Made by a program: the position numbers and the translations under genes
Assembly: GCA_035512495.1 (NCBI GenBank)
Contig: DATKDW010000014.1
Location: 1 to 37,118, forward strand
Reading direction: 5' to 3'
DNA from: Acidimicrobiales bacterium
GTDB taxonomy: Bacteria; Actinomycetota; Acidimicrobiia; Acidimicrobiales; CADCSY01
Length of the DNA stretch: 37,118 nucleotides
Shown here: piece by piece, positions 290 to 15,990 of the stretch
Position numbering within the stretch: the stretch's first letter is position 1
Layout: the number at the start of each line of letters is the position of its first letter
Notes under the pieces: model-generated
What the model saw: the letters and a program-made list of their open reading frames with translations, nothing else
What the model was told of the DNA's origin: nothing
The model's database searches: none

Positions 290-1100
290 GCCACCACAGC
301 CACCGGCTCCGCGGGGCCGGTGGCTGACGGCGCAGCCACCACCAGACCACACCAGCGGCGATCGCCACCCCGATGCCCGACCCTGCCGCGGCGGTGGCCT
401 TCGGACCGGGCATCGTCACCCGGTCGCGCAGGCGCACCGGCTTGACGAAGCGGCGCACCTCCCACCCCCGCTCCTTCGCCACCCGCAGCAGGGCCCGGTC
501 GGGGTTCACCACCACGGCGTGGCCCACCACCTCCAGCATCGGGACGTCGGTGATCGAGTCGGAGTACGACCAGCACTCGGCCAGGTCGAGCCCGCGCTCC
601 TCGGCCATGGCGATCATGGCCTCGGCCTTCACCGGCCCGTAGCAGTACCGCTCGAGCTCACCGCTGTAGCGACCCTCGCTGTCGAGTCGGGCTCGGGTCG
701 CCACGGCCACGTCGGCGCCGAGGTACGACGCCAGCGGCGCCACGATCTCCTCCGGTGAGGCGGAGATGATGACGACCAGGTCGCCCGCCTCCTGGTGTGC
801 GCGGATCAGGTCGAGCGCCTCCTCGAACACGATGGGGTCGATGACCTCTTCGAGCGTCTCCCGCACGATCGAGGAGATGTGGGCGTGGTCCCAGCCCTTG
901 GTGAGGCGCAGCGCCGCCTCGCGCATGCGGGCCAGGCGGCCCTCGTCGGCGCCGAGGTAGAGGTACACGAGCTGGCCGTACAGCGCCCGCAGCAGCAGCC
1001 AGCGCGAGAGGAGGCCGGCCCGGTAGAGGGGGCGGCCGAAGGCGACCATCGACGCCTTGGCGATCACGGTCTTGTCGAGGTCGAAGAAGGCGGCCCGCAT
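243..1100 (-). CDS. HAD-IB family hydrolase (phosphoserine phosphatase-like)
   Basis: A cytoplasmic-facing phosphatase of the haloacid dehalogenase superfamily, subclass IB, 285 aa. Motif I is FFDLDKT with nucleophile Asp7 and Asp9. Motif II is the serine in VVIISAS near residue 112. A conserved Lys lies near 158 (GPVKAEAM), and motif III is YSDSITDVPML near residue 180. A hydrophobic stretch (GIGVAIAAGVVWWWL, about 242-256) suggests a C-terminal membrane anchor, followed by a low-complexity Arg/Trp tail that may simply be read-through to the stop. The substrate is unknown; the family includes SerB-like and CicA-like proteins. It is divergent from the tad operon, a placement recalled for Rv3661 in mycobacteria. 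The start is supported by a -10 box 9 nt upstream. Confidence 0.85.
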   Translation of the reverse strand: MRAAFFDLDKTVIAKASMVAFGRPLYRAGLLSRWLLLRALYGQLVYLYLGADEGRLARMREAALRLTKGWDHAHISSIVRETLEEVIDPIVFEEALDLIRAHQEAGDLVVIISASPEEIVAPLASYLGADVAVATRARLDSEGRYSGELERYCYGPVKAEAMIAMAEERGLDLAECWSYSDSITDVPMLEVVGHAVVVNPDRALLRVAKERGWEVRRFVKPVRLRDRVTMPGPKATAAAGSGIGVAIAAGVVWWWLRRQPPAPRSRWLWWLRPLSASWRRRRRGR

Positions 1101-1115: not shown

Positions 1116-1144
1116 GGAGCCGGTGTCGCCGTCGCATGGACCCC

Positions 1145-1173
1145 TTGTGGGGGCGTGCGGGCGTCGCTACCGT
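1145..1173 (+). promoter_or_regulatory. Predicted promoter of the tad operon
   Basis: TTGTGG (1145-1150) and TACCGT (1168-1173) are separated by 17 nt. They precede a leader of about 45 nt that carries an AGGAG ribosome binding site before the ATG at 1225. The position, divergent from the HAD gene, fits the first gene of the pilus operon. Confidence 0.4.
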
Positions 1174-1224
1174 CACTGCCACCACTCCCCCCGGTCCCGG
1201 TCCGGCGCGCCCCAGGAGTGGTCC

Positions 1225-1884
1225 ATGCTCATCGCCTGCTGGTCGGTCAAGGGAGGCAGCGGCACCACGGTGGTGTCCGTCGCCCTGGCCGCCACCCTCG
1301 CCCGCTCGCACCCCCGAGGTGCCCTCGTCGTCGACCTCGACGGTGACGTCCCCGCCGTCCTCGGCCTGCCCGAGCCGGACGGCCCCGGTGTGGGCGAGTG
1401 GGCGGCTGCGGGCGAGAGCGTGCCCGTCGACGCCCTCCGTCGCCTCGAGCTCGACGCTGGCGCCGGCCTGCGGGTCCTCCCCGCCGGCTCGGCGTCGCTC
1501 GCCACCGACCACGTGGCCGGCCGCGGCGAGGTCCTCGCCGGGTTGCTGGCGGCCGACGGGCGCCCGGTGGTGGTCGACTGCGGGCGCGACCCGGCAGGCG
1601 TCGCCCTGGCCGTGGCCGCCGCCGCCACCTCGTCGCTCCTGGTGCTGCGGCCGTGTTACCTCTCGTTGCGCCGCGCCATGCGGGCCCCCCTCAGGCCGTC
1701 GGGTGCCGTGCTGGTCGTCGAGGCGGGTCGGGCCCTTGGCTCCTCCGACGTCGAGGCGGTCCTCGGGGTCCCCGTCCGGGCCCAGGTGGCGGTCGACCCC
1801 GCCGTTGCCCGGGCGGTCGACGCCGGCCTGATGGCGGGGCGCCTGCCCCGCTCGCTGGCCCGGTCGGTGGCTCGTGCGGCCTGA
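1225..1884 (+). CDS. CpaE/TadZ/Ssd-like P-loop ATPase
   Basis: A MinD/ParA-superfamily protein of about 219 aa and the first gene of a tad-type pilus operon. In this family it localises the pilus machine or, for the actinobacterial Ssd branch, affects septum placement. The deviant Walker A KGGSGTT at residues 9-15 follows directly on the N-terminal strand (MLIACWSV). ALVVDLDGD is the Walker A' region, and VVVDCGRDPAG is the switch region. The ATG at 1225 has AGGAG 5 nt upstream and starts exactly at the fold, so longer upstream reading is rejected. There is no receiver domain, and the protein is shorter than proteobacterial CpaE. It overlaps the tadA start by 11 bp, indicating translational coupling. 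Confidence 0.8.
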   Translation: MLIACWSVKGGSGTTVVSVALAATLARSHPRGALVVDLDGDVPAVLGLPEPDGPGVGEWAAAGESVPVDALRRLELDAGAGLRVLPAGSASLATDHVAGRGEVLAGLLAADGRPVVVDCGRDPAGVALAVAAAATSSLLVLRPCYLSLRRAMRAPLRPSGAVLVVEAGRALGSSDVEAVLGVPVRAQVAVDPAVARAVDAGLMAGRLPRSLARSVARAA

Positions 1885-3070
1885 CGGGGGTGCGCATGGC
1901 GAGCGCGCGGCGCTGGTGGAGCGGGTCCACCGCCGCCTGGCCGACGGCGAGCCGGTCGGGTCGGTCGACGACCTGCGCGTCCGGCTGGCCGACATCGCCC
2001 GGCAGGAGGCGCCGCTGCTGGGGGGCGGGGCGCTCGAGGCGGTGGTCGACGCCGTGGTCTCCCGCAGCACCGGCCTCGGCCCGCTCGACGCCGTGCTGGC
2101 CGACCCGGAGGTGAGCGAGGTGATGGTCAACGGCGACGGCCCGGTGTGGGTCGAGCGACGGGGGCGCCTCGAGCTCCTCGACCTCCGCCTCGACCCCGCC
2201 ACCGTCGAGCACCTCATCGAGCGGGTCGTGCGCCCCCTCGGCCTGCGCGTCGACCGGTCGTCGCCGATGGTCGACGCCCGCCTGCCCGACGGCTCGCGGG
2301 TCAACGCCGTGGTGCCGCCGCTGGCGGTCGACGGGCCCTGCCTCACCATCCGGCGGTTCTCGGCGCGGCCAGTCCTCCTCGCCGAGGTGTGCCCGCCGGG
2401 TGTCGACCTCCTGTTGGCGTGGGCGGTTCGGGCTCGGCTCAACGTGGTGGTCTCCGGCGGCACCGGGGCGGGCAAGACGACGCTGCTCAACGCTCTGGCC
2501 GGCTGCATCCCGTCGGGGGAGCGGGTGGTGACGGTCGAGGACGCCGCCGAGCTGCGCCTGCCCGGCGCGCACGTGGTGCGCCTGGAGGCCCGCGCCGCCA
2601 ACGCCGAGGGGGCGGGCGGGGTCGCCATCCGCGACCTGGTGCGCAACGCCCTGCGGATGCGCCCCGACCGGATCGTGGTGGGGGAGTGCCGCGGTGGCGA
2701 GGCGCTCGACATGCTCCAGGCGATGAACACCGGCCACGAGGGGTCGCTGTCCACCGTGCACGCCAACAGCCCCGTTGACGCCCTCCGCCGGCTCGAGGTG
2801 ATGGTGCTCACGGGGGCGACGGCCCTGCCTCTCGATGCGGTGCGCCAGCAGGTCGGCGCCGCCGTCGACCTCGTGGTCCAGATCGCCCGCCGGCCCGACG
2901 GGTCGCGCGCGGTGGTGGAGGTGGCCGAGGTCGACCTCGACGACCCCGCGCGGGTGACGACCCTGGCCACGGCGGCGGGCCTGTCGGCGCTGCCCCGCCG
3001 CCCGCCACGGGCACCCGGTTCGCCCCCGCCCGCCAACCGGTGGGTCGTGGCCGCCGGGGGGGCCCGGTGA
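1874..3070 (+). CDS. tadA: TadA/CpaF-type secretion ATPase
   Basis: The hexameric GSPII_E/VirB11-type ATPase that powers Flp pilus assembly at the inner membrane, 398 aa. An N-terminal helical domain leads into EVMVNGDGPVWVERRG, typical of CpaF. The Walker A is GGTGAGKTT with Lys201. Asp box VTVEDAAELRLPG, LVRNALRMRPDRIVVGECRGGEALDMLQAMNTGHEGSLSTVHANS (Walker B and His box) follow; all are hallmarks of the family. The C-terminal 25 residues are Pro-rich. The GTG start at 1874 overlaps the previous gene, and the TGA stop overlaps the tadB GTG by 4 bp (GTGA). Confidence 0.95.
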   Translation: MRPDGGAHGERAALVERVHRRLADGEPVGSVDDLRVRLADIARQEAPLLGGGALEAVVDAVVSRSTGLGPLDAVLADPEVSEVMVNGDGPVWVERRGRLELLDLRLDPATVEHLIERVVRPLGLRVDRSSPMVDARLPDGSRVNAVVPPLAVDGPCLTIRRFSARPVLLAEVCPPGVDLLLAWAVRARLNVVVSGGTGAGKTTLLNALAGCIPSGERVVTVEDAAELRLPGAHVVRLEARAANAEGAGGVAIRDLVRNALRMRPDRIVVGECRGGEALDMLQAMNTGHEGSLSTVHANSPVDALRRLEVMVLTGATALPLDAVRQQVGAAVDLVVQIARRPDGSRAVVEVAEVDLDDPARVTTLATAAGLSALPRRPPRAPGSPPPANRWVVAAGGAR

Positions 3071-3951
3071 GCGCGCCGCTGCTCGCCGGGGCGGTCGTCC
3101 TGGGCGTGGCTGGTGCGGTTGACGTCGCCCGCCGCGCCCGCTGGCGGGCCGTGGCCGCCCGACGCCTGGTCCCCGGGGGGAGCCCTCGCCGACCGGGGAT
3201 CGACCGACCGGCACCGCCGGCGGCGGTGGTGTCGATGGTCGATGCTGCCTGTCTGTCGGTGCCGGCCGAGGCGGTGTGGGCCTCGTGGGTCGCCGCCGGT
3301 GTCGTCATCGTCATCCTCGGCGGGGCTGCCGGCGGGGCCGCGGCCGCCGTGCTCGGCCTCGTGGTCGTCACCGTCGCCCCGGTCGTGGTGCTCCGGGCCG
3401 GTGGCGACCGGCGCGACCGGGCCGTCGAGCGCGGTCTGCCCGACGCCCTCGACGCCGTGGCCCGGAGCCTCCGCAGCGGTGCCGGGCTCCATCGTGCGCT
3501 CACCGAGGCGGCGGCCGGACCGGGCCCGGTGGCCGACGAGCTGCGGTCGGTGGTCGCCGAGGTCGACGCCGGCGACGGCCTCCTCGCCGCCCTCGACGGC
3601 TGGGCTGCCCGCCGCCCGCTGCCAGGGGTCCGCCTCGCCGTCGCCGCCCTGGCCGTGGGCCTCGAGACGGGTGGCGCCCAGGCTCGCGCCGTCGACGGGG
3701 TGGCGGCCACCATCCGCGCCCACCAGGCCCTTGCCGGCGAGGTCCGCGCTCTCTCGTCCCAGGCGAGAGCCTCGGCGGTGGTGATCGCCCTCGCCCCGGT
3801 CGGCTTCGCCGCGCTGGCGGCGGCGACCGACCCCCGCACGGCGACGTTCCTGCTCCGGACCCCTGCCGGCCTGGCCTGCCTGAGCCTGGGCCTGGCCCTC
3901 GACGCGGCAGCGGCGGCCTGGATGCACCGGCTGACGGCGGTGGAGCTGTGA
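3067..3951 (+). CDS. tadB: TadB-like T2SSF-type inner membrane protein
   Basis: A platform protein of the pilus machine, about 294 aa. Hydrophobic segments lie at the N-terminus (LLAGAVVLGVAGAV), near 78-112 (AGVVIVILGGAAGGAAAAVLGLVVVTVAPVVVL, written here in part) and at the C-terminus. Between them is a T2SSF cytoplasmic domain (GLPDALDAVARSLRSGAGLHRALTEAA, then VDGVAATIRA). The RSLRSG.GL.RAL pattern is characteristic of TadB/TadC. The chosen GTG at 3067 sits in a GTGA overlap with tadA. Upstream in-frame starts would lie inside tadA and would add an unrelated Arg-rich extension. Confidence 0.85.
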   Translation: MSAPLLAGAVVLGVAGAVDVARRARWRAVAARRLVPGGSPRRPGIDRPAPPAAVVSMVDAACLSVPAEAVWASWVAAGVVIVILGGAAGGAAAAVLGLVVVTVAPVVVLRAGGDRRDRAVERGLPDALDAVARSLRSGAGLHRALTEAAAGPGPVADELRSVVAEVDAGDGLLAALDGWAARRPLPGVRLAVAALAVGLETGGAQARAVDGVAATIRAHQALAGEVRALSSQARASAVVIALAPVGFAALAAATDPRTATFLLRTPAGLACLSLGLALDAAAAAWMHRLTAVEL

Positions 3952-4685
3952 CCGGGACGGTCCTGGCCCGCGCCCTCCCGGCGGCCTGGGCGGCCCTGGT
4001 CCTCGCCGCCTGCTGGCGAGGCCGACCCCACCCCACCCGCATCGACGGCCTGGTCCCCGCCCCTCAGGCTCCGGAGCGCCCCGCTTTGGCGTTGTCGGCA
4101 GCTGCCCGTCGCCTGGCCCCAGCCGGTCTCGCCGGTGTAGCGGCGCTGGTGCTGTGGCCGCCCCTCGTGCTGGCGGTGGTGGCGGTGGCGGTGGTGGTGC
4201 CCCGGCGCCGGGCCCGCCAGGCGGCGGAGCGCCGTCGCCGTCGGGTCCGGCGAGACCTCCCCGAGGTGGTCGACCTGGTGGCGCTGGCGGTGGGCGCCGG
4301 GCTGACCGTCGCCCTGGCGGTCGCCGTCGTCGCCCGCCGGGTCGACGGCCCGGTGGGCGACGAGCTGGCCCGAGTCGAGCGCGAGGTCGCCCACGGCCGG
4401 CGCCTGGCCGATGCCCTCGATGAGGTCCCCGTGCGCCTCGGCGACGAGGTCCGCCCCCTCATTGCCGCCCTGGCGGCCTCCGACCGCTACGGGGCACCGC
4501 TGCTGACAGGCCTCGAGCGCCTGGCGGCCGACCTTCGGGCCGACCGGCGCCGGTCGGCCGAGGCGGCGGCCCGGCGGGTCCCCGTCGCGCTCCTCTTCCC
4601 CCTGGTGCTCTGCATCCTCCCCGCCTTCGCGCTGCTCACGGTGGCGCCCCTCCTCGCCGGCGGCCTCGCGGCCCTTCGGCCCTGA
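3948..4685 (+). CDS. tadC: TadC-like T2SSF-type inner membrane protein
   Basis: The partner of TadB, about 245 aa. The N-terminal TM is at ALPAAWAALVLAACW and a second hydrophobic block is at LAGVAALVLWPPLVLAVVAVAVVV. The T2SSF core contains RRDLPEVVDLVALAVGAGLTVALAVAVVA and GRRLADALDEVP. The C-terminus has a hydrophobic FPLVLCILPAFALLTVAPLL segment, the standard TadC ending. The GTG start overlaps the tadB stop as GTGA, so TadA-TadB-TadC are likely co-translated. Confidence 0.85.
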   Translation: MTGTVLARALPAAWAALVLAACWRGRPHPTRIDGLVPAPQAPERPALALSAAARRLAPAGLAGVAALVLWPPLVLAVVAVAVVVPRRRARQAAERRRRRVRRDLPEVVDLVALAVGAGLTVALAVAVVARRVDGPVGDELARVEREVAHGRRLADALDEVPVRLGDEVRPLIAALAASDRYGAPLLTGLERLAADLRADRRRSAEAAARRVPVALLFPLVLCILPAFALLTVAPLLAGGLAALRP

Positions 4686-4705
4686 GCACCTCGCTCGACC
4701 CGTCC

Positions 4706-4715
4706 GAACCGGTTC
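4706..4715. promoter_or_regulatory. GAACCGGTTC palindrome upstream of the pilin gene
   Basis: A perfect 10-bp palindrome lies in the 58-nt gap between tadC and the Flp pilin gene. It has the same half-sites and 2-nt spacing as GAACTAGTTC at 5434-5443. A shared dimeric regulator is a possible but untested explanation. Confidence 0.3.
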
Positions 4716-4743
4716 ACCCGTCCCGACCCGAAGGAGGAGCCCC

Positions 4744-4992
4744 ATGCTCCGATCGATCGTCCATGTCACCCGCCGCCTCCCCGCGCTGCTCGCCACCGCC
4801 CTGCTCGCCCACGCTCCCGCCCCGCCCCGGTGGCGCGACGAGGGCGGCCAGACGTCGGCCGAGTACGCCCTGGTGGTCCTCGGGGCCGCCTCCGTCGCCC
4901 TCCTCGTCGCCGTGTGGGCCCGCAACACCGATCAGGTCGGCAGCCTGCTCGACACCATCTTCGGCGGCATCTCCCGGATGGCCCGGGGGTGA
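4744..4992 (+). CDS. flp: Flp/type IVb pilin (DUF4244-like)
   Basis: An 82-aa major pilin candidate. It has the type IVb prepilin processing pattern G|QTSAEY: Gly35 is followed by Glu at +5 and Tyr at +6. The hydrophobic helix ALVVLGAASVALLVAVWA comes next, then a short C-terminus (NTDQVGSLLDTIFGGISRMARG). The 35-residue leader is unusually long and contains its own hydrophobic patch (LPALLATALLA). A strong AAGGAGGAG ribosome binding site before the ATG fits a highly made structural subunit. No prepilin peptidase gene (tadV) is in the window. The stop overlaps the next GTG (GTGA). Confidence 0.85.
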   Translation: MLRSIVHVTRRLPALLATALLAHAPAPPRWRDEGGQTSAEYALVVLGAASVALLVAVWARNTDQVGSLLDTIFGGISRMARG

Positions 4993-5381
4993 GCGCCCGG
5001 GGGCGGCGAGGGCGGGTGGGCGAGCGCGGCCAGGCGGCGGTGGAGCTCGCCCTCGTCCTCCCCCTGGTGGTGACCCTCGCCCTGTTGGTGGCGCAGGTCG
5101 GGCTGGTGGTGCGCGACCAGGTGCACGTGACCCACGCCGCCCGCGAGGCCGTCCGTCGAGCGGCGGTCGACCCCGACCCCGCCGCGGCGCGGGCCGCGGC
5201 CCTCGCCGGCTCCCCGCTCGACCCCGGGCGCCTCCAGGTGGAGGTGGGGCGACGCGGTGCCCCCGGGGAGCAGGTCCGGGTGGTGGTCCGCTACCGCTCC
5301 CCGGTGCGGGTCCCCGGGCTGTCGACCCTCCGCTCCGAGGTCGGTTTGTCCGATTCGGCCGCTATGCGCGTCGAAAAGTGA
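4989..5381 (+). CDS. TadE-like pseudopilin
   Basis: A 130-aa minor pilin-like protein. After a short basic N-terminus it carries the TadE signature ERGQAAVELALVLPLVVTL, with Glu19 at the +5-like position and a single hydrophobic helix (about 17-42). A small extracytoplasmic domain follows (RDQVHVTHAAREAVRRAAVDPD, then a beta-rich tail). It is coupled to the Flp pilin gene by GTGA. In mycobacterial tad loci two or three small TadE/F-like genes lie at this position; here there is only one. A 17-bp inverted repeat lies just after the stop. Confidence 0.8.
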   Translation: MSARGRRGRVGERGQAAVELALVLPLVVTLALLVAQVGLVVRDQVHVTHAAREAVRRAAVDPDPAAARAAALAGSPLDPGRLQVEVGRRGAPGEQVRVVVRYRSPVRVPGLSTLRSEVGLSDSAAMRVEK

Positions 5382-5529: not shown

Positions 5530-6837
5530 ATGAGGAAGATCCGCCGTCACGCCACCGTGGGCGTGGCGCTCGTCGCAGCGGGGTTGCTCGTCGGAGGCCC
5601 GGCGCTCGCCCAGAGCACCGCCACCGAGACCTCCAGTGGTACCGCGTACGATGCCCGGGCCACGGCCGAGGCCCTCAAGATCGTGCTCTTCGGCACCGAG
5701 GTCACCGGCAGCACCGCCGTCGCAGCCCTCGACGGGACCCCCGTCGCCGGTGCGTCGGCCACCGAGGTCTTCCTCGGCCCGGTCTCCACCGGCGAGGCCG
5801 AAGCCCGCGTGGAGAACGTCGACGGCACGGACGAGAACACCACCGACTGCGCCACCGGCCTCGAGGCCATCCCCGGCGTCGGTCGCTTCGACGTCACCTG
5901 CCCCACTGCTACCGCCTCCATCGCCGACGGCCTCCCGAGTGCCAGTGGCCTCGGTGCGCAGGCGGTCATCGACGCGTCGGCCAGCGAGCTGCTCGACACC
6001 ATCGGGCTGCAGGAGCCGGTCAACGACATCGTCGACGAGACGTACGAGCAGCTGCTCGACCCCCTCGTCGCGGAGCTCACGGGCAACCCGATCGGCGACC
6101 TGGTGGAGGACACCACCATCACCCTCCGCCAGCTCCTGACCGAGGTGTTGAACCTCGAGACCACCGCCCGCATCGTGGTGGCGCCGGCGCTCGCCGAGGT
6201 GGACGCGACCGCCGACCAGGCCTCGGCCTCGGCCCAGGCCCAGGGCCTGCGCATCGAGCTCCTGCCCGCCGACGTGCTCAGCGACACCAACAACCTGCTG
6301 CCCGCCGACCTCGAGCAGGGCGAGCCCCTGATCACCATCATCGTCGGCGAGGCCAAGGCCTCGAAGACCATCGACCGCGCGACCGGTGACTTCTCCACCG
6401 AGCAGTCGGCAGCGCTCGTCACCGTCAAGATCGGCACCCTCGAGCTGCTGGAGACCCTCGGTCTCGCTTCGCAGGAGATCGCCCTCGAGGTCGGCCAGAG
6501 CCTCTGCCTGCTCGAGGACACGCTGCTCGAGACCTGCATCACCGTCGCCGACTCCGGCGTCGACGCCAACGGCACCTCGTGGGCCGACGGCACCAGCATC
6601 CAGATCTTCAAGGGTGTCGGCGAGTCGGAGGTCGGCGCAGGCGACGGCGGCGTCGACCTCACCGTCGGCCGGGTCACGGCCGGTGCAAGCATCACGCCCG
6701 CCGCCGAGGCACCGCAGGTCGATCTTCCCGTGGAGCTGCCCCGCACCGGTGGCGACCCCATGGTCCCGCTGGCCGGCGCCGCTCTCCTCGGCCTGGCCGT
6801 CGGTGTCCGTCGCCTCGTGCGACGCTCCGCCGCCTAG
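5530..6837 (+). CDS. Secreted LPxTG-anchored surface protein
   Basis: 435 aa. The signal peptide covers residues 1-27 (MRKIRRHATVGVALVAAGLL, then ALAQ). A Thr/Ala-rich acidic ectodomain carries two cysteine pairs (near 106/124 and 325/337) that could form disulfides. The C-terminal sorting signal is LPRTG, followed by the hydrophobic VPLAGAALLGLAVGV and RRLVRR tail. The ectodomain fold is not recognised. It looks repetitive in style (TAEALKI.LFGTEVTGS, then ALVTVKIGTLELLETLG), as in secreted choice-of-anchor proteins. GAAGGAG precedes the ATG at 5530. The class E sortase gene follows immediately, separated by a strong terminator, and is its probable anchoring enzyme. Confidence 0.85.
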   Translation: MRKIRRHATVGVALVAAGLLVGGPALAQSTATETSSGTAYDARATAEALKIVLFGTEVTGSTAVAALDGTPVAGASATEVFLGPVSTGEAEARVENVDGTDENTTDCATGLEAIPGVGRFDVTCPTATASIADGLPSASGLGAQAVIDASASELLDTIGLQEPVNDIVDETYEQLLDPLVAELTGNPIGDLVEDTTITLRQLLTEVLNLETTARIVVAPALAEVDATADQASASAQAQGLRIELLPADVLSDTNNLLPADLEQGEPLITIIVGEAKASKTIDRATGDFSTEQSAALVTVKIGTLELLETLGLASQEIALEVGQSLCLLEDTLLETCITVADSGVDANGTSWADGTSIQIFKGVGESEVGAGDGGVDLTVGRVTAGASITPAAEAPQVDLPVELPRTGGDPMVPLAGAALLGLAVGVRRLVRRSAA

Positions 6838-6876
6838 TCCCACCTCGGGGTCGACCCCCCACATTGATCAACCTGG

Positions 6877-6905
6877 AGGCCCCGAGGTCTGAGACCTCGG
6901 GGCCT
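6877..6905 (+). terminator. Strong hairpin terminator after the LPxTG gene
   Basis: A perfect 13-bp stem with a TGA loop (AGGCCCCGAGGTC / GACCTCGGGGCCT), followed by TCGTT. It separates the LPxTG gene from the sortase gene. Confidence 0.85.
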
Positions 6906-6909
6906 TCGT

Positions 6910-6915
6910 TACTCT
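6910..6915 (+). promoter_or_regulatory. -10 box TACTCT for sortase
   Basis: TACTCT lies 9 nt upstream of the sortase ATG and begins 5 nt after the terminator stem. The sortase therefore probably has its own near-leaderless promoter embedded in the terminator tail. Confidence 0.45.
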
Positions 6916-6924
6916 GGGAGCATC

Positions 6925-7686
6925 ATGATCCAGGCCGTCGCTGTCACCTCGGTGGCGGTCGTCCTCGTCGCTCTCGTGGCGACCCAGGTCGGCCGTCCGC
7001 GCCGAGCGTCCCGCCCCGTCCCCACCTCCGTCGGCGCCGCAGCGGCACCGCCGACATCGCGCGACCCGATGTCCAAGCTTGTCGACGTGCTGCGCCGCCG
7101 CCGCTGGGCCCGGGTCTCGCTGTCGGCGCTCTCGGCAGCGCTGCTCATCGGCGCCGTCGCCGTGCTCGGCTACCCCTTCTACACCAACGTCTACCAGAGC
7201 CGCATCCAAGGCCAGCTCGATCGCCAGCTGGCCTCCCCCGAGCTGCAGCAGGCCTACAAGACAGGCCAGGTGGCCACCGGTGACGCCCTCACCCGCATCA
7301 AGATCCCCTCGCTCGGCGTCGACACCGTCGTGGTGTCGGGCGTGACCGCCAGCGCCCTGCGGGCCGGGGCGGGCCACTACCCCGACACCCCCCTGCCGTG
7401 CGAGCTCGGCAACGTGGCCATCGCCGGCCACCGCACCACCTACGGGCGTCCGTTCCACAACCTCGACCGCATGGCGGTGGGCGACACCATCGTCCTCGAG
7501 ACGCCGATCGGGGAGTGCACGTACGTGGTGGAGGCAGCCCCGTTCATCGTGCAGCCCGACGCCCTCCACGTCGTCGACCCCACCCCGCACGGGGCCCTGA
7601 CCCTCACCACGTGCCACCCGAAGGGGTCGGCGGCCCAGCGCCTGATCGTGCGAGCGAGGCTCCAGGGGCCCACGGCCGGCGCATGA
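6925..7686 (+). CDS. Class E sortase
   Basis: A membrane transpeptidase that attaches sorting-signal proteins to the cell wall, 253 aa. Two N-terminal hydrophobic segments (residues 3-22 and about 65-86) flank a Pro/Arg-rich linker. The catalytic domain starts near residue 125 (LTRIKIPSLGVDTVVVSG). Catalytic residues visible are His169 (AIAGHRTTYG), Cys230 in TLTTCHPKGSA, and Arg239 (AQRLIV). The TLTTC motif and single-domain layout fit class E. Class E enzymes characterised in streptomycetes prefer LAxTG, whereas the neighbouring substrate has LPRTG. The stop overlaps the next gene's ATG (ATGA). Confidence 0.9.
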   Translation: MIQAVAVTSVAVVLVALVATQVGRPRRASRPVPTSVGAAAAPPTSRDPMSKLVDVLRRRRWARVSLSALSAALLIGAVAVLGYPFYTNVYQSRIQGQLDRQLASPELQQAYKTGQVATGDALTRIKIPSLGVDTVVVSGVTASALRAGAGHYPDTPLPCELGNVAIAGHRTTYGRPFHNLDRMAVGDTIVLETPIGECTYVVEAAPFIVQPDALHVVDPTPHGALTLTTCHPKGSAAQRLIVRARLQGPTAGA

Positions 7687-8906
7687 CGTCCACCCGGCGG
7701 TGGGCCACCCTCGTCGGCGCCCTCACCCTCGTCCTCGCCCTCACGGCGATGCCGGCGGGTGCGGCGCCGCCCGAGGTCCGGTGGACGAGCCCCTCCCAGA
7801 CCGATCCCGTCCTGCGCGAACGCGGCCCCCTCCGGGGCGAGGCCAGCGACCCCGACGGCGGGGGGATCGAGACCATCACCTTCACGCTCGAGCCCGACCA
7901 GGCGATGGAGCCGGATGACCCCTGTCGCCCGTCGATCCAGGACGGCGACCAGGTGCAGACCTACGCGGGGAGCCCGGCGGTGTCGTTCGCCGTCCGGGTG
8001 AACCTGCCCTGCAACGGCACCTTCGTGGCCACGGCCGTGGTCCGCACCCGGCCGGCGAGCGCCTTCGACGAGCAGAACCAGGCCACCGCCGTGCTGCGCT
8101 TCGACGCCGCCGTGCCCCCCCTTCCGGTGTCGGGGCTCCGGGGCAAGGCCGGCTCGGAGCCGCCGCCGGACGACGCGCCGCAGGAGCAGGTGCCCCCGCC
8201 TCCCTCCGAGGTCGACGAGGTCGCGCCCGACGACGGCGCCGACGACGGCGACGAGGACTTGGTGCCGCAGGTGGTGACCCTCGTGTGGGACCCCAACCCC
8301 GAGCCCGATCTGCTCCGCTACGAGGTCCACCGGGCGGCGCCCGAGCGCCCGTTCTGGCCCATCGGCAGCGTCGAGGCCGGCTACACCCGCTACGTCGACG
8401 ACCTCACCGGAGCGAAGGGGGGGAGCTACCGCTACCGCGTCTTCTCCGTGCGCGAGGGGCCTGGGTCGGCCACCGAGGTGGTGGTGGCCGACGAGCCGGC
8501 CGAGACCGCCGTGGACGTCCCGGGCCGGCGCATCGCCACCGGCGACGAGACCACGACCACCACCCAGGCCGGGAGCGCCTCGCCGTCCCGGCAGACGACG
8601 AGGTCGGGGGCGTCGGTCCGTCGCTCGCCGCTCACCACCCGCGACACCGGCTTCGAGCCGACGCTCGACTTCGGGGAGCTGCCCGCCCCCGCCCCCGGTG
8701 AGGCCGAGGGCGAGCAGCCGCAGGGCGATCCGGGCGACGACGCTGCCATCGCCCGGTTTGATGACGACGACGACCCGATGCCGCTGGACCTCCTGGCGCC
8801 GGTGGCGGGGAGCCTGGTGCTGCTCATGGGGGCCATCCACCTGCGCCACCTGGCCAAGCGGGCATCTGAGTCACCGGACCCCGTCGACGTGGTGGTCGAG
8901 GGCTAG
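7683..8906 (+). CDS. Secreted/membrane fibronectin type III-like protein
   Basis: 407 aa, coupled to the sortase by ATGA. A signal peptide (residues 1-28) is followed by an Ig-like domain with SPSQTDPVLRERGPLRGEAS and two cysteines (CRPS and LPCNG). A Pro/Asp/Glu-rich linker leads to an Fn3-like domain (VTLVWDPNPEPDLLRYEVHR, then YRYRVFSVREG) near 200-280. A Thr/Ser-rich disordered stretch and a C-terminal TM (LLAPVAGSLVLLMGAIHL) with a basic stop-transfer end the protein. It has no LPxTG of its own. It may scaffold or sense the wall-anchored neighbour, but its role is unknown. Confidence 0.75.
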   Translation: MTSTRRWATLVGALTLVLALTAMPAGAAPPEVRWTSPSQTDPVLRERGPLRGEASDPDGGGIETITFTLEPDQAMEPDDPCRPSIQDGDQVQTYAGSPAVSFAVRVNLPCNGTFVATAVVRTRPASAFDEQNQATAVLRFDAAVPPLPVSGLRGKAGSEPPPDDAPQEQVPPPPSEVDEVAPDDGADDGDEDLVPQVVTLVWDPNPEPDLLRYEVHRAAPERPFWPIGSVEAGYTRYVDDLTGAKGGSYRYRVFSVREGPGSATEVVVADEPAETAVDVPGRRIATGDETTTTTQAGSASPSRQTTRSGASVRRSPLTTRDTGFEPTLDFGELPAPAPGEAEGEQPQGDPGDDAAIARFDDDDDPMPLDLLAPVAGSLVLLMGAIHLRHLAKRASESPDPVDVVVEG

Positions 8907-8937: not shown

Positions 8938-11211
8938 TCACGCCGAACGGCGGGTGGTGGCGACGCCGAGGACGGCGTCGAGGAGGGCGACGGCCCCGCC
9001 TTTGTCGAGCTGCTCGTTGAGGTTGCCGCACTTCGGGGACTGCACGCACGAGGGGCACCCGGTGCCGCAGGGGCAGCCGGCGACGGTCTCGAGGGTGGCG
9101 GTGAGGAGGTCGGTCCCGGCCTCGAAGCCCAGCTCGGCGATGCCGGCTCCGCCCGGGTAGCCGTCGTAGACGACGATGGTGGGGCGGCCCGTGTCGGGCT
9201 GGACGGCGGTGGACACTCCGCCTACATCCCAGCGGTCGCAGATGGTGAACAGCGGCAGGAGGCCGATGGCGGCGTGCTCGGCGGCGTGCAGGGCGGCCGG
9301 GCGGCCGCCGGGAGTGATGCCGGCGTCGTCGAGCACCTTCGGCTCCACCACGTACCAGAAGGCCCGAGTCACCAGGCGGCTCTCGGGGAGGTCGAGCGCT
9401 TCGGTCCCCAGGACCTCGCCGGAGGCCGCGTCGCGACGCTGGTAGCCCACCACCGTGGTGACGACCTCCACCTCGCCGAGGTGCAGGCGCGCCCGGCCGG
9501 CGGGCACCGACTGCTCGTCGGTCAGGATCCGGATGTCGGTCTCGCTGCGCACCTGGGTGACCTCGTCGCCCGCTGACCGCGAGACCCACGCCACGTGGTC
9601 GTCGAGGTCGAGGTCGTCGACCTTCCAGGCCTGGCCCTGGTGGAGGTACACGGCCCCGGGGTGCACGACGTCGAATGCCCGCGCCGCGTCGACGGTGCCC
9701 ACGAGACGGCCGTCGGCCTCGGCAATGCGGTACTCGACCGACGAGCTCGAGCGCAGCCCGACGCCCCCGGCGGGGGACCCGTGCCCCGCCCAGTAGCCCC
9801 GCTGCTCGCGGACCCGCAGGTGGTCGGACTGCACCAGCCGCCGGACACCGTCGGAGAGGTCGTCGCCCCACCACCGCTCGTCGTCGTGGCCCAGGGGGAG
9901 CTCGAAGGCGGCGCACGCGAGGTGGGGGAGCAGGACGTAGGGGTTCGAGGGGTTGACCACGGCCGGCTCCGGCTGGCGTGAGAACACCTCGTCGGGGTGG
10001 CCCATGAGCCACTGGTCGAGCTGGTCGTCGCCGGCGACCAGGACGGCGAGCGAGCGCTGCTGGTCGCGCCCGGCCCGACCCGCCTGCTGCCACATGGAGG
10101 CGATGGTGCCCGGGAAGCCGTCGAGCACACAGGCGTCGAGGCCGCCGACATCGACCCCGAGCTCGAGGGCGCTGGTGGCGACCACGGCTCGCAGCCTGCC
10201 GCCGAAGAGCTCGGCCTCGATGGCCCGCCGCTCGGCGGCGAGGTAGCCGCCCCGGTAGGGACGGACCAGCTCGGCCTGGTCGCCGACGCGGCGGCGGGTC
10301 GTGGCAGCGACCACCTCGGTGCCCTTTCGGCTCCGGCAGAACGCGATGGCGCGCGAGCCGTTGCGGACCAGCTCGGCGAGCAGCGCCGCCGTCTCGCCGT
10401 GCGCCGACGCCCGAGCCCCGGACCCCTCGTCGAGCAGGGGCGGGTTCCAGAGGGCGAAGAGGCGCTCGCCGGCGGGGGAGCCGTCGTCGGTGACCGCGGT
10501 GACCTCCAGGCCCGAGAGGGCCGAGGCGAGGGCATCGGGCTGCCCGATGGTCGCCGACGAGAAGATGAAGGTCGGGTCGGCGCCGTAGTGGGCGCAGAGG
10601 CGACGCAGGCGACGTAGGACCTGGGCGACGTGGCTGCCGAAGATGCCCCGCATGACGTGCAGCTCGTCGACCACCACGTAGCGGAGCCGCATGAGGAACG
10701 TGGCCCAGCGGCCGTGGTGGGGGAGCAGCCCGGCGTGGAGCATGTCGGGGTTGGTGAGGAGGACCGAGGCGTTGCGCCGTGCCCACGCCCGCTCCTCGGG
10801 TCCGGTGTCGCCGTCGTAGCAGGCGGCCACCACCTCGGGGAGGTCGAGGGCGGTGAGCGCCCGCAGCTGGTCCTGGGCCAGGGCCTTGGTCGGGTAGAGC
10901 ACGAGCGCCGTCCCTGGCCCGTCCCGGCGTCCCGAGGGGTCGAGGCCCAGGGCCGCCTCGGCGATCGGCGCCTGGTAGCACAGCGACTTGCCCGAGGCCG
11001 TGCCGGTGGCCACCGCCACCGACCGACCGGCGCGCGCCAGGTCGATGGCCGCCGCCTGGTGCGACCAGAGCCGGGGTGGGAGCCGCTCGGCCACCGCCGG
11101 GGGCAGCGGCCGGGCCGGCTCCGCGTAGCGGGGAGCCCGGGCGGGGAGCCGCTCGAGGTGCACCAAGCGCCCGCCGGTGCCGAGGCGCGTGACCAGCTCC
11201 TCCAGCTCCAC
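8938..11211 (-). CDS. DEAD/DEAH-box helicase with DUF1998 (MrfA/YprA-like)
   Basis: An SF2 helicase, 757 aa. In Bacillus the MrfA branch acts in repair of mitomycin C damage; that role is assumed here, not shown. Motifs seen are the Q-like region WSHQAAAIDLA, Walker A GTASGKS (70-76), VLYPTKALAQDQ (Ia), DELH (182-185, motif II), FSSAT (III), AIAFCRSRKGTE (IV), TSALELGVD (V) and QQAGRAGR (VI). The C-terminal DUF1998 zinc site has Cys713, 715, 719, 722 and 728. The GTG start at 11211 is supported by TAGCCT 6 nt upstream. It is divergent from a STAS gene, the same arrangement recalled for bldG and its helicase neighbour in Streptomyces. Confidence 0.93.
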   Translation of the reverse strand: MELEELVTRLGTGGRLVHLERLPARAPRYAEPARPLPPAVAERLPPRLWSHQAAAIDLARAGRSVAVATGTASGKSLCYQAPIAEAALGLDPSGRRDGPGTALVLYPTKALAQDQLRALTALDLPEVVAACYDGDTGPEERAWARRNASVLLTNPDMLHAGLLPHHGRWATFLMRLRYVVVDELHVMRGIFGSHVAQVLRRLRRLCAHYGADPTFIFSSATIGQPDALASALSGLEVTAVTDDGSPAGERLFALWNPPLLDEGSGARASAHGETAALLAELVRNGSRAIAFCRSRKGTEVVAATTRRRVGDQAELVRPYRGGYLAAERRAIEAELFGGRLRAVVATSALELGVDVGGLDACVLDGFPGTIASMWQQAGRAGRDQQRSLAVLVAGDDQLDQWLMGHPDEVFSRQPEPAVVNPSNPYVLLPHLACAAFELPLGHDDERWWGDDLSDGVRRLVQSDHLRVREQRGYWAGHGSPAGGVGLRSSSSVEYRIAEADGRLVGTVDAARAFDVVHPGAVYLHQGQAWKVDDLDLDDHVAWVSRSAGDEVTQVRSETDIRILTDEQSVPAGRARLHLGEVEVVTTVVGYQRRDAASGEVLGTEALDLPESRLVTRAFWYVVEPKVLDDAGITPGGRPAALHAAEHAAIGLLPLFTICDRWDVGGVSTAVQPDTGRPTIVVYDGYPGGAGIAELGFEAGTDLLTATLETVAGCPCGTGCPSCVQSPKCGNLNEQLDKGGAVALLDAVLGVATTRRSA

Positions 11212-11682: not shown

Positions 11683-11699
11683 CACCACCCCCCTGAGTT

Positions 11700-11720
11700 G
11701 CCCCTCCGCGGCGGAGGGGC
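11700..11720 (+). terminator. Hairpin terminator after STAS gene
   Basis: GCCCCTCCG and CGGAGGGGC form a 9-bp stem with a 3-nt loop, followed by TTCAC, 17 nt after the STAS stop. It isolates the STAS gene from nhaA. Confidence 0.7.
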
Positions 11721-11733
11721 TTCACTGCCCCGC

Positions 11734-13161
11734 GTGCGAAGTCCGGAGCGTGACGCTGTCCGTCACTCGTGGAGCGAGTCCGATCGCTTCGTCCCACGCG
11801 CCTTCGTCCAGCCCGCCCGCCGGTTCATGGCCATGGGGGCATCCGGCGGCGTGGTCATGGTGGTGGCGGCCATCGTCGCCCTGGCGTGGGCCAACTCGCC
11901 GTTCCACGGCTCCTACCAGGCGCTGTGGGACACCCGCTTCGACATCGCCCTCGGGAACGTGGCCCACGTCGACCTGACGTTGCGGGAGTGGGTCAACGAC
12001 GCCGCCATGGCGATCTTCTTCTTCGTGGTTGGCCTGGAGATCAAGCGCGAGCTGGTGACCGGTCAGCTCCGCGACCGTCGGGCGGCGGCGCTGCCGGCGG
12101 TGGCCGCCGTCGGAGGGATGGTCGTCCCGGCGCTGGTCTTCCTGGCCTTCAACGCCGGCCACGCCGGCGCCCGTGGGTGGGGCATCCCCATGGCGACCGA
12201 CATCGCCTTCGCCGCCGGCGTCGTCGCCCTCCTCGGCCGGCGGGTCCCCTCGGGGGCCAAGCTCTTCCTGCTGACGCTGGCCATCGTCGACGACCTCGGC
12301 GCCATCGTGGTGATCGCGGTGTTCTACACCGCCGACGTCTCCCTCGGCTGGCTGGTGGCGGCGGCGGCGACCCTCGTCGTGGCCACGGCGCTGCGCAGGC
12401 TCGACATCCGATCGCTCCTCCCGTACACGGCCCTCGCCGTCACCTGCTGGCTGGCCCTCCACGAGTCGGGGGTGCACGCCACCCTGGCGGGCGTGGCGTT
12501 CGGCCTCCTCACCCCGGTCTGGTCGTTCTACGACCCCGCCCGCTTCGGCGCTCGGGCCCGGGCGGTGGTCGAGGAGATCGAGCACACCTTCGCCGACGGT
12601 GTGCTCGACCACGACGAGTACGAGCGGAACGACGCCCGCCTGCGCGACCTCATCCACCTCTCCACCGAGACGTCGTCGCCTCTCGAGCGCCTCGAGCGCC
12701 GGCTGGCGCCGTGGGTCTCGTTCATGGTGGTGCCCACCTTCGCCCTGGCCAACGCCGGTGTCCGCCTCACGGGCGACACCCTCACCGGGGCCCTCGGCAA
12801 CCGGGTCGTGCTCGGCGTGGCAGTCGGGCTGGTCGTCGGCAAGACGGTCGGCATCGTGGCCACGACGTGGCTGGCGTGCCGGGTGGGCATGGGCCGCCTG
12901 CCGGCGCAGACCACGTGGCGCCACCTGTTCGGCCTGGCGGTGTGCGCCGGCATCGGATTCACCGTGGCGCTGTTCGTGGCCGGCCTGTCGTTCACCGACG
13001 GGGCCCTCACCGATGCGGCCAAGGTCGGGATCCTCGGAGGGAGCCTCATCGCCGCCGTGCTCGGTGCCGCCATCCTGCGGTCGGCCCCGATGTCGGGCGG
13101 TCCCGACGATGACCCGACCTCGGTCGTGGCGCCGGAGCCGGTGGGCACCCGATCGGCGTAG
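11734..13161 (+). CDS. nhaA: Na+/H+ antiporter NhaA
   Basis: An inner membrane antiporter of about 475 aa that exports Na+ for H+. Family marks are ALAWANSPFHGSY after TM1, EWVNDAAMAIFFFVVGLEIKREL, the GIPMATDIAFAAGVVALLG segment and LTLAIVDDLGAIVVIAVFY with the paired Asp of the ion site. LHESGVHATLAGVAFGLL and GIGFTVALFVAGLSF complete the pattern. A charged insert of about 70 residues (FGARARAVVEEIEHTF, then ERLERRLAPWVSF) sits between helices, as usual for NhaA. The GTG at 11734 was chosen because the earlier TTG at 11698 falls in the terminator hairpin; the exact start is uncertain. Confidence 0.93.
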   Translation: MRSPERDAVRHSWSESDRFVPRAFVQPARRFMAMGASGGVVMVVAAIVALAWANSPFHGSYQALWDTRFDIALGNVAHVDLTLREWVNDAAMAIFFFVVGLEIKRELVTGQLRDRRAAALPAVAAVGGMVVPALVFLAFNAGHAGARGWGIPMATDIAFAAGVVALLGRRVPSGAKLFLLTLAIVDDLGAIVVIAVFYTADVSLGWLVAAAATLVVATALRRLDIRSLLPYTALAVTCWLALHESGVHATLAGVAFGLLTPVWSFYDPARFGARARAVVEEIEHTFADGVLDHDEYERNDARLRDLIHLSTETSSPLERLERRLAPWVSFMVVPTFALANAGVRLTGDTLTGALGNRVVLGVAVGLVVGKTVGIVATTWLACRVGMGRLPAQTTWRHLFGLAVCAGIGFTVALFVAGLSFTDGALTDAAKVGILGGSLIAAVLGAAILRSAPMSGGPDDDPTSVVAPEPVGTRSA

Positions 13162-13269: not shown

Positions 13270-15990
13270 GTGTCCAAGCCCCTCGTCATCGTGGAGTCAC
13301 CCGCCAAGGCCCGGACGATCGCCGGGTTCCTGGGCGACGACTACGTCGTCGAGTCCTCGATCGGGCACATCCGGGACCTGCCCCGCAACGCCGCCGACGT
13401 CCCCGCCGCCTACAAGGGCGAGAAGTGGGCCCGAGAGGGCGTCGACCCCGACAACGACTTCAAGCGGCTCTACGTGGTGCCGAGCGAGAAGAAGGAGCAG
13501 GTGGCCAAGCTCAAGCGGGCGCTCAAGGACGCCAGCGAGCTGTACCTCGCGACGGATGAGGACCGCGAGGGCGAGGCCATCGCCTGGCACCTCCTGGAGG
13601 TGCTGAACCCGCAGGTGCCCGTGCGGCGCATGGTCTTCCACGAGATCACCCCCGCCGCCATCCAGGCGGCGATCGACGAGCCCCGCGAGCTCGACCTCCG
13701 CCGGGTCGACGCCCAGGAGACCCGCCGGATCCTCGACCGCCTCTACGGCTACCGGGTCAGCCCCGTGCTCTGGCGCAAGGTGGCCTCTGGCCTCTCGGCC
13801 GGCCGGGTCCAGAGCGTCGCCACCCGGCTGGTGGTCGACCGCGAGCGCGCCCGCATGCGCTTCCGCTCCGCCTCGTGGTGGGACCTGGAGGGCACCTTCG
13901 CCACGTCCGTCAACCCCGGTGACGCCGCCGCGCCCACCGAGCTCAGCGCCGGCCTCTTTGCCCTCGACGGCACCCGTCTCGCCACCGGCAAGGACTTCGA
14001 CGAGGACGGTCAGCCCACCCGTACCGACGTGGTCGTGCTCGACGAGGCCCAGGCCACCGCCCTGGTCGACGACCTGGCCGATGCCGAGGTCAGCGTGCGG
14101 TCGGTGGAGCGCAAGCCCTACCGGCGCCGGCCGGCGCCGCCGTTCATGACCTCCACCCTCCAGCAGGAGGCCAGCCGCAAGCTGCGGCTGTCGGCCGCCC
14201 AGGCCATGTCGACCGCCCAGCGGCTCTACGAGGGCGGCTACATCACCTACATGCGAACCGACTCCACCACGCTCTCGGAGTCGGCCGTCGCCGCCGCCCG
14301 CGCCACGATCCGCCAGCGCTACGGAGCCGACTACGTCCCCGACGCCCCCCGCAGCTATGCCCGCAAGGTCAAGAACGCCCAGGAGGCGCATGAGGCCATC
14401 CGCCCGGCGGGCGAGACCTTCCGCACCCCCGAGGAGGTCGCCCGCGAGGTCGACCCCACCGCCGCCCGGCTCTACGAGCTGGTGTGGCAGCGCACCATCG
14501 CCTCCCAGATGCCCGACGCCGTCGGCGAGACGGTGACCCTGCGCCTCGGCGGCACCGGCGCCTCGGGGCGCGACGCCGAGTTCGCCACCAGCGGCACGGT
14601 CATCACCTTCCCGGGCTTCCAGCGGGCCTACGTGGAGAGCACCGACGAGGGCGACGATGCCGACCAGACCGAGCGCCGCCTGCCCCCGCTCACCGAGGGC
14701 GATCGCCTCGACGTCACCTCGCTGGTCCCGAGCGGCCACGAGACCAGCCCGCCGCCCCGCTTCACCGAGGCCAGCCTGGTGAAGCGCATGGAGGAGCTCG
14801 GCGTCGGGCGGCCCTCCACCTACGCCGCCACCATCCAGACCATCCAGGACCGCGGCTACGCCTGGAAGAAGGGCAACGCCCTTGTGCCCTTCTACATGGC
14901 CTTCGCCGTCACCACGCTGCTCGAGCGGCACTTCCCCGACCTGGTCGACTACGCTTTCACCGCCCGCATGGAGGACGACCTCGACGAGATCGCCGGCGGG
15001 CGGGCGGAGTCGATCCCGTGGCTGCGTCGCTTCTACTTCGGCGAGGACGGCGCGTCGGGCCTGAAGCACATGGTCGACGACCGCCTCGGCGACATCGACG
15101 CCATCGACGTGAGCACCATCCCCGTCGGTGTCGACGACGAGGGCACCGAGATCGTGGCCCGCGTCGGCAAGTACGGGCCCTACCTGGTGCGCGGCGAGCA
15201 GAAGGCCAACATCCCCGAGGACACCGTCCCCGACGAGCTCAGCGTCGAGCGCGCCATCGAGCTGCTGGAGGCGCCGAGCGGCGACCGCGACCTCGGCACC
15301 GACCCCGAGTCGGGCCTGTCGGTGCAGGCCAAGGCGGGCCGCTACGGCCCGTACGTGCAGCTCGGCGAGATGGAGGACGGCGCCAAGGAGAAGCCCCGGA
15401 CCGCATCGCTGTTCAAGACCATGACCCTCGAGCGGCTCACGCTCGAGGATGCCCTCCAGCTGCTCACCCTGCCTCGGGTCGTGGGCGTCGACCCGGCCGA
15501 CGGCGAGGAGATCACCGCCCAGAACGGCCGCTACGGGCCGTACATCAAGAAGGGCAGCGACTCCCGCACCATCGACAACGAGGAGCTGCTCCTCACCATC
15601 ACGCTCGAGCAGGCGCTCGCCGTCCTGGCCGAGCCCAAGCGCCGTCGGGGCCAGAAGGCCTCCACCGCCCTCAAGGAGCTCGGCGACGACGTGGTGTCGG
15701 GCAAGCCCATGGTGGTGAAGGACGGCCGCTTCGGCCCCTACGTCACCGACGGCGAGACCAATGCCTCGCTGCGCAAGGGCGACGCCGTCGAGGACATCAC
15801 CCCGGAGCGGGGCATGGAGCTGCTCGCCGAGCGTCGCGCCAAGGGCCCCACCACCAAGAAGAAGGCCAGCCGCAAGAAGGCCCCGGCCAAGAAGAAGGCG
15901 GGTGCCAAGAAGGCGGGTGCCAAGAAGGCGGCCAAGAAGAAGGCCACGGGCGCGCCCGGCCCGACGTCCGGCGACACCGAGGAGCCGTAG
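13270..15990 (+). CDS. topA: DNA topoisomerase I (type IA)
   Basis: Relaxes negative supercoils through a 5'-phosphotyrosyl intermediate, 906 aa. The Toprim domain opens with VIVESPAKARTIAGFLG and carries ATDEDREGEAIAWHLLE. The catalytic Tyr327 is in GGYITYMRTDSTTLS. The core ends with LGVGRPSTYAATIQTIQDRGY. Instead of zinc fingers, the C-terminus has several repeats of the GRYGPY type (GKYGPYLVRG, GRYGPYVQLG, GRYGPYIKKG, GRFGPYVTDG), typical of actinobacterial TopA. A Lys/Ala-rich tail of about 35 residues (AKKKAGAKKAGAKKAAKKK) probably binds DNA. The start is GTG at 13270. TTGACA is present at 13234 but without a convincing -10. Confidence 0.97.
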   Translation: MSKPLVIVESPAKARTIAGFLGDDYVVESSIGHIRDLPRNAADVPAAYKGEKWAREGVDPDNDFKRLYVVPSEKKEQVAKLKRALKDASELYLATDEDREGEAIAWHLLEVLNPQVPVRRMVFHEITPAAIQAAIDEPRELDLRRVDAQETRRILDRLYGYRVSPVLWRKVASGLSAGRVQSVATRLVVDRERARMRFRSASWWDLEGTFATSVNPGDAAAPTELSAGLFALDGTRLATGKDFDEDGQPTRTDVVVLDEAQATALVDDLADAEVSVRSVERKPYRRRPAPPFMTSTLQQEASRKLRLSAAQAMSTAQRLYEGGYITYMRTDSTTLSESAVAAARATIRQRYGADYVPDAPRSYARKVKNAQEAHEAIRPAGETFRTPEEVAREVDPTAARLYELVWQRTIASQMPDAVGETVTLRLGGTGASGRDAEFATSGTVITFPGFQRAYVESTDEGDDADQTERRLPPLTEGDRLDVTSLVPSGHETSPPPRFTEASLVKRMEELGVGRPSTYAATIQTIQDRGYAWKKGNALVPFYMAFAVTTLLERHFPDLVDYAFTARMEDDLDEIAGGRAESIPWLRRFYFGEDGASGLKHMVDDRLGDIDAIDVSTIPVGVDDEGTEIVARVGKYGPYLVRGEQKANIPEDTVPDELSVERAIELLEAPSGDRDLGTDPESGLSVQAKAGRYGPYVQLGEMEDGAKEKPRTASLFKTMTLERLTLEDALQLLTLPRVVGVDPADGEEITAQNGRYGPYIKKGSDSRTIDNEELLLTITLEQALAVLAEPKRRRGQKASTALKELGDDVVSGKPMVVKDGRFGPYVTDGETNASLRKGDAVEDITPERGMELLAERRAKGPTTKKKASRKKAPAKKKAGAKKAGAKKAAKKKATGAPGPTSGDTEEP

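Follow-up and report, generated by a model that had tools for sequence, protein, structure and literature searches.

Genes and features of the locus

We analysed a 37,118-nucleotide stretch of DNA from an Acidimicrobiales bacterium (GCA_035512495.1, contig DATKDW010000014.1; hereafter the window), which is the whole of contig C14 in a 97-contig genome of 2.8 Mb with an estimated completeness of 96%. Our subject is three adjacent genes in it: SUB, which encodes a putative surface protein with an LPRTG sorting signal, SRT, which encodes a class-E-like sortase, and FN3, which encodes a putative membrane protein with Ig/Fn3-type domains (Table 1). They stand in a block with the order HAD, ssd-like, tadA, tadB, tadC, pilin, tadE, SUB, SRT, FN3, MZB helicase, STAS, NhaA, topA. 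A preliminary description of the window had recognized the conserved block of HAD, Ssd-TadABC, pilin, TadE, helicase, STAS and topA and had placed the three surface genes between tadE and the helicase; we confirmed both points and added one gene that it had not named, NhaA. Since homologues of all three surface genes keep the same order in many genomes, the arrangement reflects more than chance.

SUB has a signal-like N-terminal helix and ends in LPRTG, a hydrophobic helix and an Arg tail, which is the layout of an LPxTG surface protein. The TIGR01167 profile matched this tail above its cut-off in a genome scan (16.6 vs 15.9 bits) and below it in a protein scan (11.5 bits). The predicted structure (pLDDT 79.5) shows a beta-rich body with a helical insert, and this body matched no family in Pfam or NCBIfam. 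Two cysteines are nearly invariant in the SUB alignment, and the signal has its L, T and G in every one of the 25 aligned proteins. SUB is most likely a sortase-anchored surface protein, which would be attached covalently to the wall. We also considered kinship with outer-membrane barrels and rejected it: Foldseek barrels reached TM-scores of at most 0.16 by query length in a whole-chain search, and VIA matches (Z up to 7.4, mostly barrels) were read as a common antiparallel sheet. In the complete genome of Aquihabitans sp. G128 (L171, 8346-9851), the SUB gene is split over two overlapping reading frames.

Downstream of SUB we observed a hairpin. Strong hairpins (≤ -20 kcal/mol) lie 3' of 21 of the 37 SUB genes, where mononucleotide shuffles, a lenient control, lead one to expect 3.5; for the hairpin region of the window, a dinucleotide control gave z -3.4.

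In the FN3 model, a signal-like helix is followed by two domains of Ig/Fn3 type, a poorly ordered linker and one C-terminal helix; the protein carries no LPxTG. Pfam gave no match for the window's FN3, and the fn3 family was matched at E ≤ 0.1 in six of 15 homologues (best 2.5e-05). With FN3 starts placed by a script near the profile start, 36 of 53 loci show an overlap of the FN3 start with the SRT stop; in 22 of these it measures 4 nt, as in the ATGA of the window. Neighbouring FN3 duplicates occur in three divergent lineages (L160, L177 and L234), and in L160 and L234 the sortase is duplicated too.

Table 1 Features of the window, with the three-gene module first and its neighbours below
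Feature	Position	Strand	Remark
SUB, secreted surface protein with LPRTG sorting signal (predicted)	5530..6837	+	435 aa
LPRTG pentapeptide	6736..6750	+	SUB residues 403-407; a hydrophobic helix and an Arg-rich tail come next
GC hairpin 3' of SUB stop	6874..6908	+	Strong, terminator-like, without clean T run
SRT, class-E-like sortase	6925..7686	+	253 aa as listed; clade-conserved part starts near ATG 7069
SRT Tyr152	7378..7380	+	Counterpart of SrtE1 Tyr229 (GHY)
SRT Cys159	7399..7401	+	First Cys of clade-specific pair
SRT Cys198	7516..7518	+	Second Cys of clade-specific pair
SRT Cys230 (TLTTC)	7612..7614	+	Catalytic
FN3: signal-like helix, two Ig/Fn3-type domains, linker, C-terminal helix	7683..8906	+	Overlaps SRT stop (ATGA 7683-7686)
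FN3 linker peptide FEPTLDF	8652..8672	+	Window's version of [FY]x2-4L[PD][FY]
FN3 C-terminal helix	8793..8870	+	Residues 371-396, taken as transmembrane; predicted model
HAD gene	243-1100	-	
ssd-like P-loop gene, tadA, tadB, tadC, pilin, tadE (flank)	1123..5381	+	Outside module: absent in nine loci of the 79-locus set that retain the module
DUF4244/Flp-like pilin	4744-4992		Both families match below cut-off only
tadE	4989-5381		
MZB helicase	8938..11211	-	Convergent, bounds module
NhaA-type Na+/H+ antiporter	11698-13161		Between STAS and topA; relatives near the same place in several other loci
topA	13270-15990		

Distribution and age of the locus

To compare the synteny of the block across Actinobacteria, we used a sample of 59 Acidimicrobiales genomes, a 79-locus set and a phylum sample of 119 genomes. 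SRT orthologues (at least 54% identity, >215 bits) were present at 27 places in 26 of the 59 genomes, and in 11 of the 12 genomes of the organism's own family. Contigs permitting, the sortase gene in this sample lies nearly always between tadE, or HAD where tad is gone (as also in G057), and helicase/STAS; a second copy in G011 has no block neighbour on its 4.5 kb contig. In blocks without the sortase, the stretches examined gave no SUB or SRT profile match. An FN3-like open reading frame beside the helicase of one such block (G037) is weak and lacks the linker motif described below.

We then built a sortase tree from the 79-locus set, which overlaps our other sets (e.g. L174 is L222 and L200 is L233), so that the counts are not additive. 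The tree is unrooted (midpoint for drawing) and has some long branches; L168, L188 and L201 were excluded beforehand. It contains two syntenic clades. The main one (support 94/89) comprises 50 rows, most of which bear the label Acidimicrobiia or simply Actinomycetota; the second (89/87) comprises 11 rows labelled Nitriliruptoraceae, Egibacteraceae, Frankiales and Mycobacteriales, among others. Seven paralogous sortases of the order stand apart from both (76/79). Among the 49 loci of the main clade, FN3 is present in 44 and helicase or STAS lies downstream in 42; the seven loci with neither helicase nor STAS stop within 2.5 kb. Tad genes lie upstream in 32 of the 49, and the other 17 consist of nine with HAD upstream and eight that start within 1.7 kb. 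The second clade (11 loci) has FN3 in 9, helicase or STAS in 10 and tad in 5, and the 19 loci outside both clades have them in 13, 5 and 3, respectively. Nine loci lack tad between HAD and the sortase and keep the module (L135, L163, L165, L167, L172, L173, L175, L179 and L187).

In the phylum sample, 18 genomes gave a sortase match at E ≤ 1e-42, and 14 of these lie outside the class; the other 101 had no match at this strict threshold. Six of the 14 have at least two block markers around a sortase copy (L224, L227, L228, L230, L232 and L239), four have a tad gene only (weak matches in L223, L225 and L226; 8 kb away in L229), and four have only sortase copies without recognised block genes, so that the locus would be shared by 6 to 10 of the 14. 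The order SUB-SRT-FN3 also occurs without recognised tad or helicase nearby (L222, L233 and L234). Because orthologue synteny extends across the order and the second clade, the sortase-FN3 pair at this locus is, as far as sequence comparison can tell, old, with losses such as that in G003, and it is not universal in the phylum. The cassette thus appears to be ancestral at least for the order and the second clade, and its description as an insertion into a conserved block, made from the window alone, is not supported.

Sortase class, sorting signals and conserved residues

SRT matched the Pfam Sortase family with 104 bits and carries the active-site motif TLTTC. Its top NCBIfam family was class E (NF033747); at 134-135 bits, SRT does not reach the curated cut-off for that class, 160 bits. 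The same holds for all 19 members of the SRT alignment, with E ≤ 8e-47 taken as an estimate of ~160 bits. For class D, the score was 78.9 bits against a cut-off of 165. The class E motif named in the preliminary description is real, and class E is the closest class, though the score falls short of its cut-off. We next compared SRT with known structures. A single-sequence PDB search placed 5UUS, which we take to be SrtF of C. diphtheriae, first (82.9 bits) and 4D70, presumably the class D sortase CpSrtD of Clostridium perfringens, fourth (67 bits). With an SRT profile, 4D70 came first (108.8 bits) and class E structures followed (102.4 bits and below). The loop before TLTTC (beta6/beta7 loop) is ~8 residues shorter in SRT than in 5CUW, 5GO5 and 5GO6.

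A genome scan found three sortases, SRT and those on contigs C77 and C93, all closest to class E. The C77 sortase (L001 / L020) is a clear class E enzyme (187.6 bits) with a long C-terminal extension that includes a hydrophobic stretch; the C93 sortase (L003 / L021) is divergent, with a TIFAC active site. No class A model was among the NCBIfam matches of the three, and SRT gave only weak PDB matches to class A chains. A class A-like sortase for LPRTG, which the preliminary description had weighed as an alternative, was thus not among them. The scan for further sorting signals suggested there yielded four more LPxTG-type tails, with LPRTG on C70 (L209), C73 (L205) and C76 (L210) and LPATG on C83 (L206). 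None of seven NF058582 matches in the genome was an LAxTG protein; both profiles used are short, and some proteins may have been missed. LPRTG seems to be the house signal of this organism, as judged from its predicted tails.

Among 37 distinct SUB tails, we counted LPRTG in 25, LPFTG in four, LAKTG in three, and LPTTG, LPVTG, LPLTG, LPYTG and LPETG in one each, that is, Pro at P3 in 34 and Ala in three. These counts exclude motif-less rows (pieces in L170 and L171; L180) and a duplicate, L151. The preliminary description had set LPRTG against the LAxTG favoured by class E enzymes. LPRTG is the rule among these tails, and the contrast is real, but it is weaker than it sounds. Passages of PMC5148588 report that SrtE1 cleaves LPETG as well as LAETG, with a preference of just 2-fold; a class E sortase with LPVTG substrates, SrtE of Actinoplanes missouriensis, is described in part of PMC13251363, and a class E enzyme of B. 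bifidum presumably accepts [LIV][SAP]XTG according to a passage of PMC8603203. The contrast between LPRTG and LAxTG is a matter of lineage and not an oddity of this locus.

In the same passages of PMC5148588, Kattke and colleagues propose Tyr229 of SrtE1, the Y of GHY in their primers, as the LAxTG selector, and state that the Pro/Ala choice could not be tested by mutation. We observed Tyr at this position (beta3/beta4 loop, aligned with GHY of 5CUW) in all 27 SRT orthologues and, counting duplicates and paralogues, in 131 of 135 aligned rows. Of the four exceptions, two are sortases of the genome itself, with Phe on C77 and Trp on C93, and two are distant rows that lack the catalytic Cys. The search patterns of the 79-locus set include GAGHY or IAGHRTT, so its tyrosine counts are partly selected; the 27 orthologues were not so selected. 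Since the tyrosine is present in all of them, it is no predictor of the sorting signal. In the tree, the three LAKTG rows (L130, L148 and L149) cluster together with support 98/98, next to L143, a sister that carries LPRTG. Their tyrosine is unchanged, and a pocket change at Tyr152 was accordingly discarded as the cause of the switch from LPRTG to LAKTG. Only two catalytic-domain positions have a rare residue common to the three LAKTG rows and not found in L143: 161, with Gly for Thr (beta3/beta4 loop, two residues after Cys159), and 222, with Glu for Asp. Position 161 remains a candidate for the signal switch.

A second feature of SRT is a pair of cysteines. Cys159 and Cys198 are both present in 61 of 110 distinct catalytic domains and both missing in 49, and neither was found alone. 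The carriers are the main clade, the related rows L168 and L201 (off the tree) and other copies of the same orthologue; the second clade, the paralogues and the remaining loci lack the pair. It is also missing from the Acidimicrobiia-labelled copies in L160, which fall outside the main clade. This all-or-none pattern is what a disulfide would give. The pair appears to be new, as we found no earlier description of it.

The FN3 linker carries a short motif, [FY]x2-4L[PD][FY], in 36 of 44 FN3 proteins of the main clade and five of eight of the second (shuffles, 0.05 and 0.1), 23-46 residues before the membrane helix. It is also present in 15 of 17 FN3 rows outside the two clades. The window's own FEPTLDF is not among these counts, and row L193, at a contig end, was excluded. 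The peptide looks conserved and is apparently new, with no earlier description found. Mimicry of a sorting signal by LP[FY] was considered and weakened, as D replaces P in several lineages, the window included.

We also searched the open-licence literature. On sortases of Acidimicrobiia or Acidimicrobiales it held nothing beyond stray co-mentions; under sortase and LPRTG, no native actinobacterial enzyme stood out by title among those listed; and under sortase and disulfide there was nothing on these sortases. Under sortase and Tad, the sortase passage of PMC3244431 is introductory only.

Proposed mechanism, alternatives and comparison with known systems

From gene content, adjacency, conservation, motif counts and the cysteine-pair pattern, we infer that SUB, SRT and FN3 probably constitute an old, self-contained wall-anchoring module of a sparsely studied actinobacterial group, in which SRT anchors SUB and FN3 is a co-translated partner. 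SUB would be exported via its signal peptide and then retained in the membrane by its C-terminal helix. The membrane sortase SRT would cleave it at LPRT|G and join it to the cell wall. FN3 would be synthesized in step with SRT through translational coupling and would form an extracellular Ig/Fn3 stalk beside it in the membrane, where the linker peptide probably docks SRT or its substrate. The hairpin 3' of SUB would let substrate outnumber enzyme, and its strength in 21 of the 37 loci suggests this ratio.

Adjacency carries much of this argument. The 59-genome sample contains 13 near-full-length SUBs (a 72-aa match in G012 was set aside), and 12 of them directly adjoin SRT. The thirteenth, in G006, runs off a contig end, and an LPRTG tail precedes SRT on another contig of that genome, which fits adjacency. 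In the 79-locus set, SUB directly precedes SRT as a rule. Several observations weigh against the proposal. SUB is beside SRT in just 26 of the 49 main-clade loci, some of them cut by contig ends, and in none of the 11 second-clade loci. As loci that lack SUB retain SRT and FN3, SRT probably has other substrates or another task there. Structure comparison gave no recognised fold for SUB, 16 of the 37 SUBs have no strong hairpin, and the hairpin of the window, without a clean T run, went unreported by a terminator scan. The linker of the window reads LDF instead of LPF, which again speaks against a mimic of the sorting signal.

A further point on that side is the C77 sortase, which scores above the class E cut-off and could anchor SUB itself. 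It might serve all LPxTG proteins, including SUB, while SRT acts on FN3 or something else. SRT and its 19 aligned members remain below the cut-off that C77 passes, the genome has four more LPxTG-type tails elsewhere, and SRT is retained in many genomes without an adjacent SUB. Against this stand the 12 of 13 SUBs that adjoin SRT, the consistent thirteenth, and the joint occurrence of SUB, SRT and FN3 outside this locus as well, and we regard anchoring by C77 as unlikely.

We consider it far less plausible that SRT and FN3 belong to the Tad pilus machine, for example by anchoring the pilus base to the wall. In 32 of 49 loci, the module does follow tad genes of its own strand, in a run that ends at the convergent helicase. 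However, nine of the 17 tad-less loci have HAD upstream, so that tad is gone and the module stayed; the triple is also found away from tad, and tad occurs without this sortase in G003, G015, G016, G023, G029, G034, G050, G052 and G054. A role in the pilus is unlikely because the module outlives tad.

Recent horizontal insertion of a surface-gene cassette into the block, to which tadE directly beside the helicase in G003 and G050, the stand-alone copies of the triple and the mostly off-block position of loci in neither syntenic clade (5 of 19 have helicase or STAS) might point, is hardly credible and was rejected on synteny, tree and composition: 26 of the 59 Acidimicrobiales genomes have the sortase, mostly in the same place, and so does the second clade, the tree unites the order's syntenic copies (94/89), the GC content of the module (0.69-0.76) is close to that of its neighbours (0.70-0.80), SUB has no relative in phage or plasmid collections, and G003 belongs to a family with the sortase in 11 of 12 genomes, which fits loss.

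In the usual view, a sortase works alone and recognizes its substrates by a short signal. A more speculative reading of the locus, which we put forward only tentatively, is a hitherto undescribed two-component sortase of several actinobacterial lineages: an enzyme intermediate between class D and class E would act together with an Ig/Fn3 membrane protein that is dedicated to it, co-translated with it and docked via the linker peptide, and a Cys159-Cys198 disulfide would lock the enzyme in the main Acidimicrobiia clade only. If true, such a conserved partner in the membrane, co-translated and equipped with a docking peptide, would add a new level of sortase control, and the switch from LPRTG to LAKTG with an unchanged Tyr229 counterpart would show that P3 selection does not depend on the tyrosine alone. 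The Pro/Ala choice has a natural test bed in the orthologous sortases whose partners carry LPRTG, LPFTG or LAKTG.

Among known systems, FN3 resembles WxLIP of Enterococcus faecium (9I1Y), a membrane-anchored surface protein, which ranked third in Foldseek and likewise has tandem Ig-like domains. However, with a TM-score of 0.21 by query length it scores no differently from many tandem Fn3 chains of eukaryotes, which indicates a common domain type only. A. missouriensis SrtE is, like SRT, an actinobacterial class E sortase with LPxTG (LPVTG) substrates, but it has a length of 792 aa and carries its sortase domain C-terminally, and the passages of PMC13251363 that describe it mention neither an Fn3 partner nor a position at a tad locus. 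4D70 is the best match of the SRT profile and has a similarly short loop. In contrast to SRT, it has Phe in place of the Tyr, and SRT scores lower for class D than for class E; for CpSrtD, an LPQTG preference is reported in a passage of PMC5148588. With the class E sortases themselves (SrtE1 of Streptomyces coelicolor, 5CUW; 5UUS), SRT shares its nearest NCBIfam class, the TLTTC site and the GHY tyrosine. It differs from them in a score below the cut-off, a loop before TLTTC that is shorter than in 5CUW, an extra Cys pair and a partner that carries LPRTG instead of LAxTG, and a class E label does not predict an LAxTG signal.

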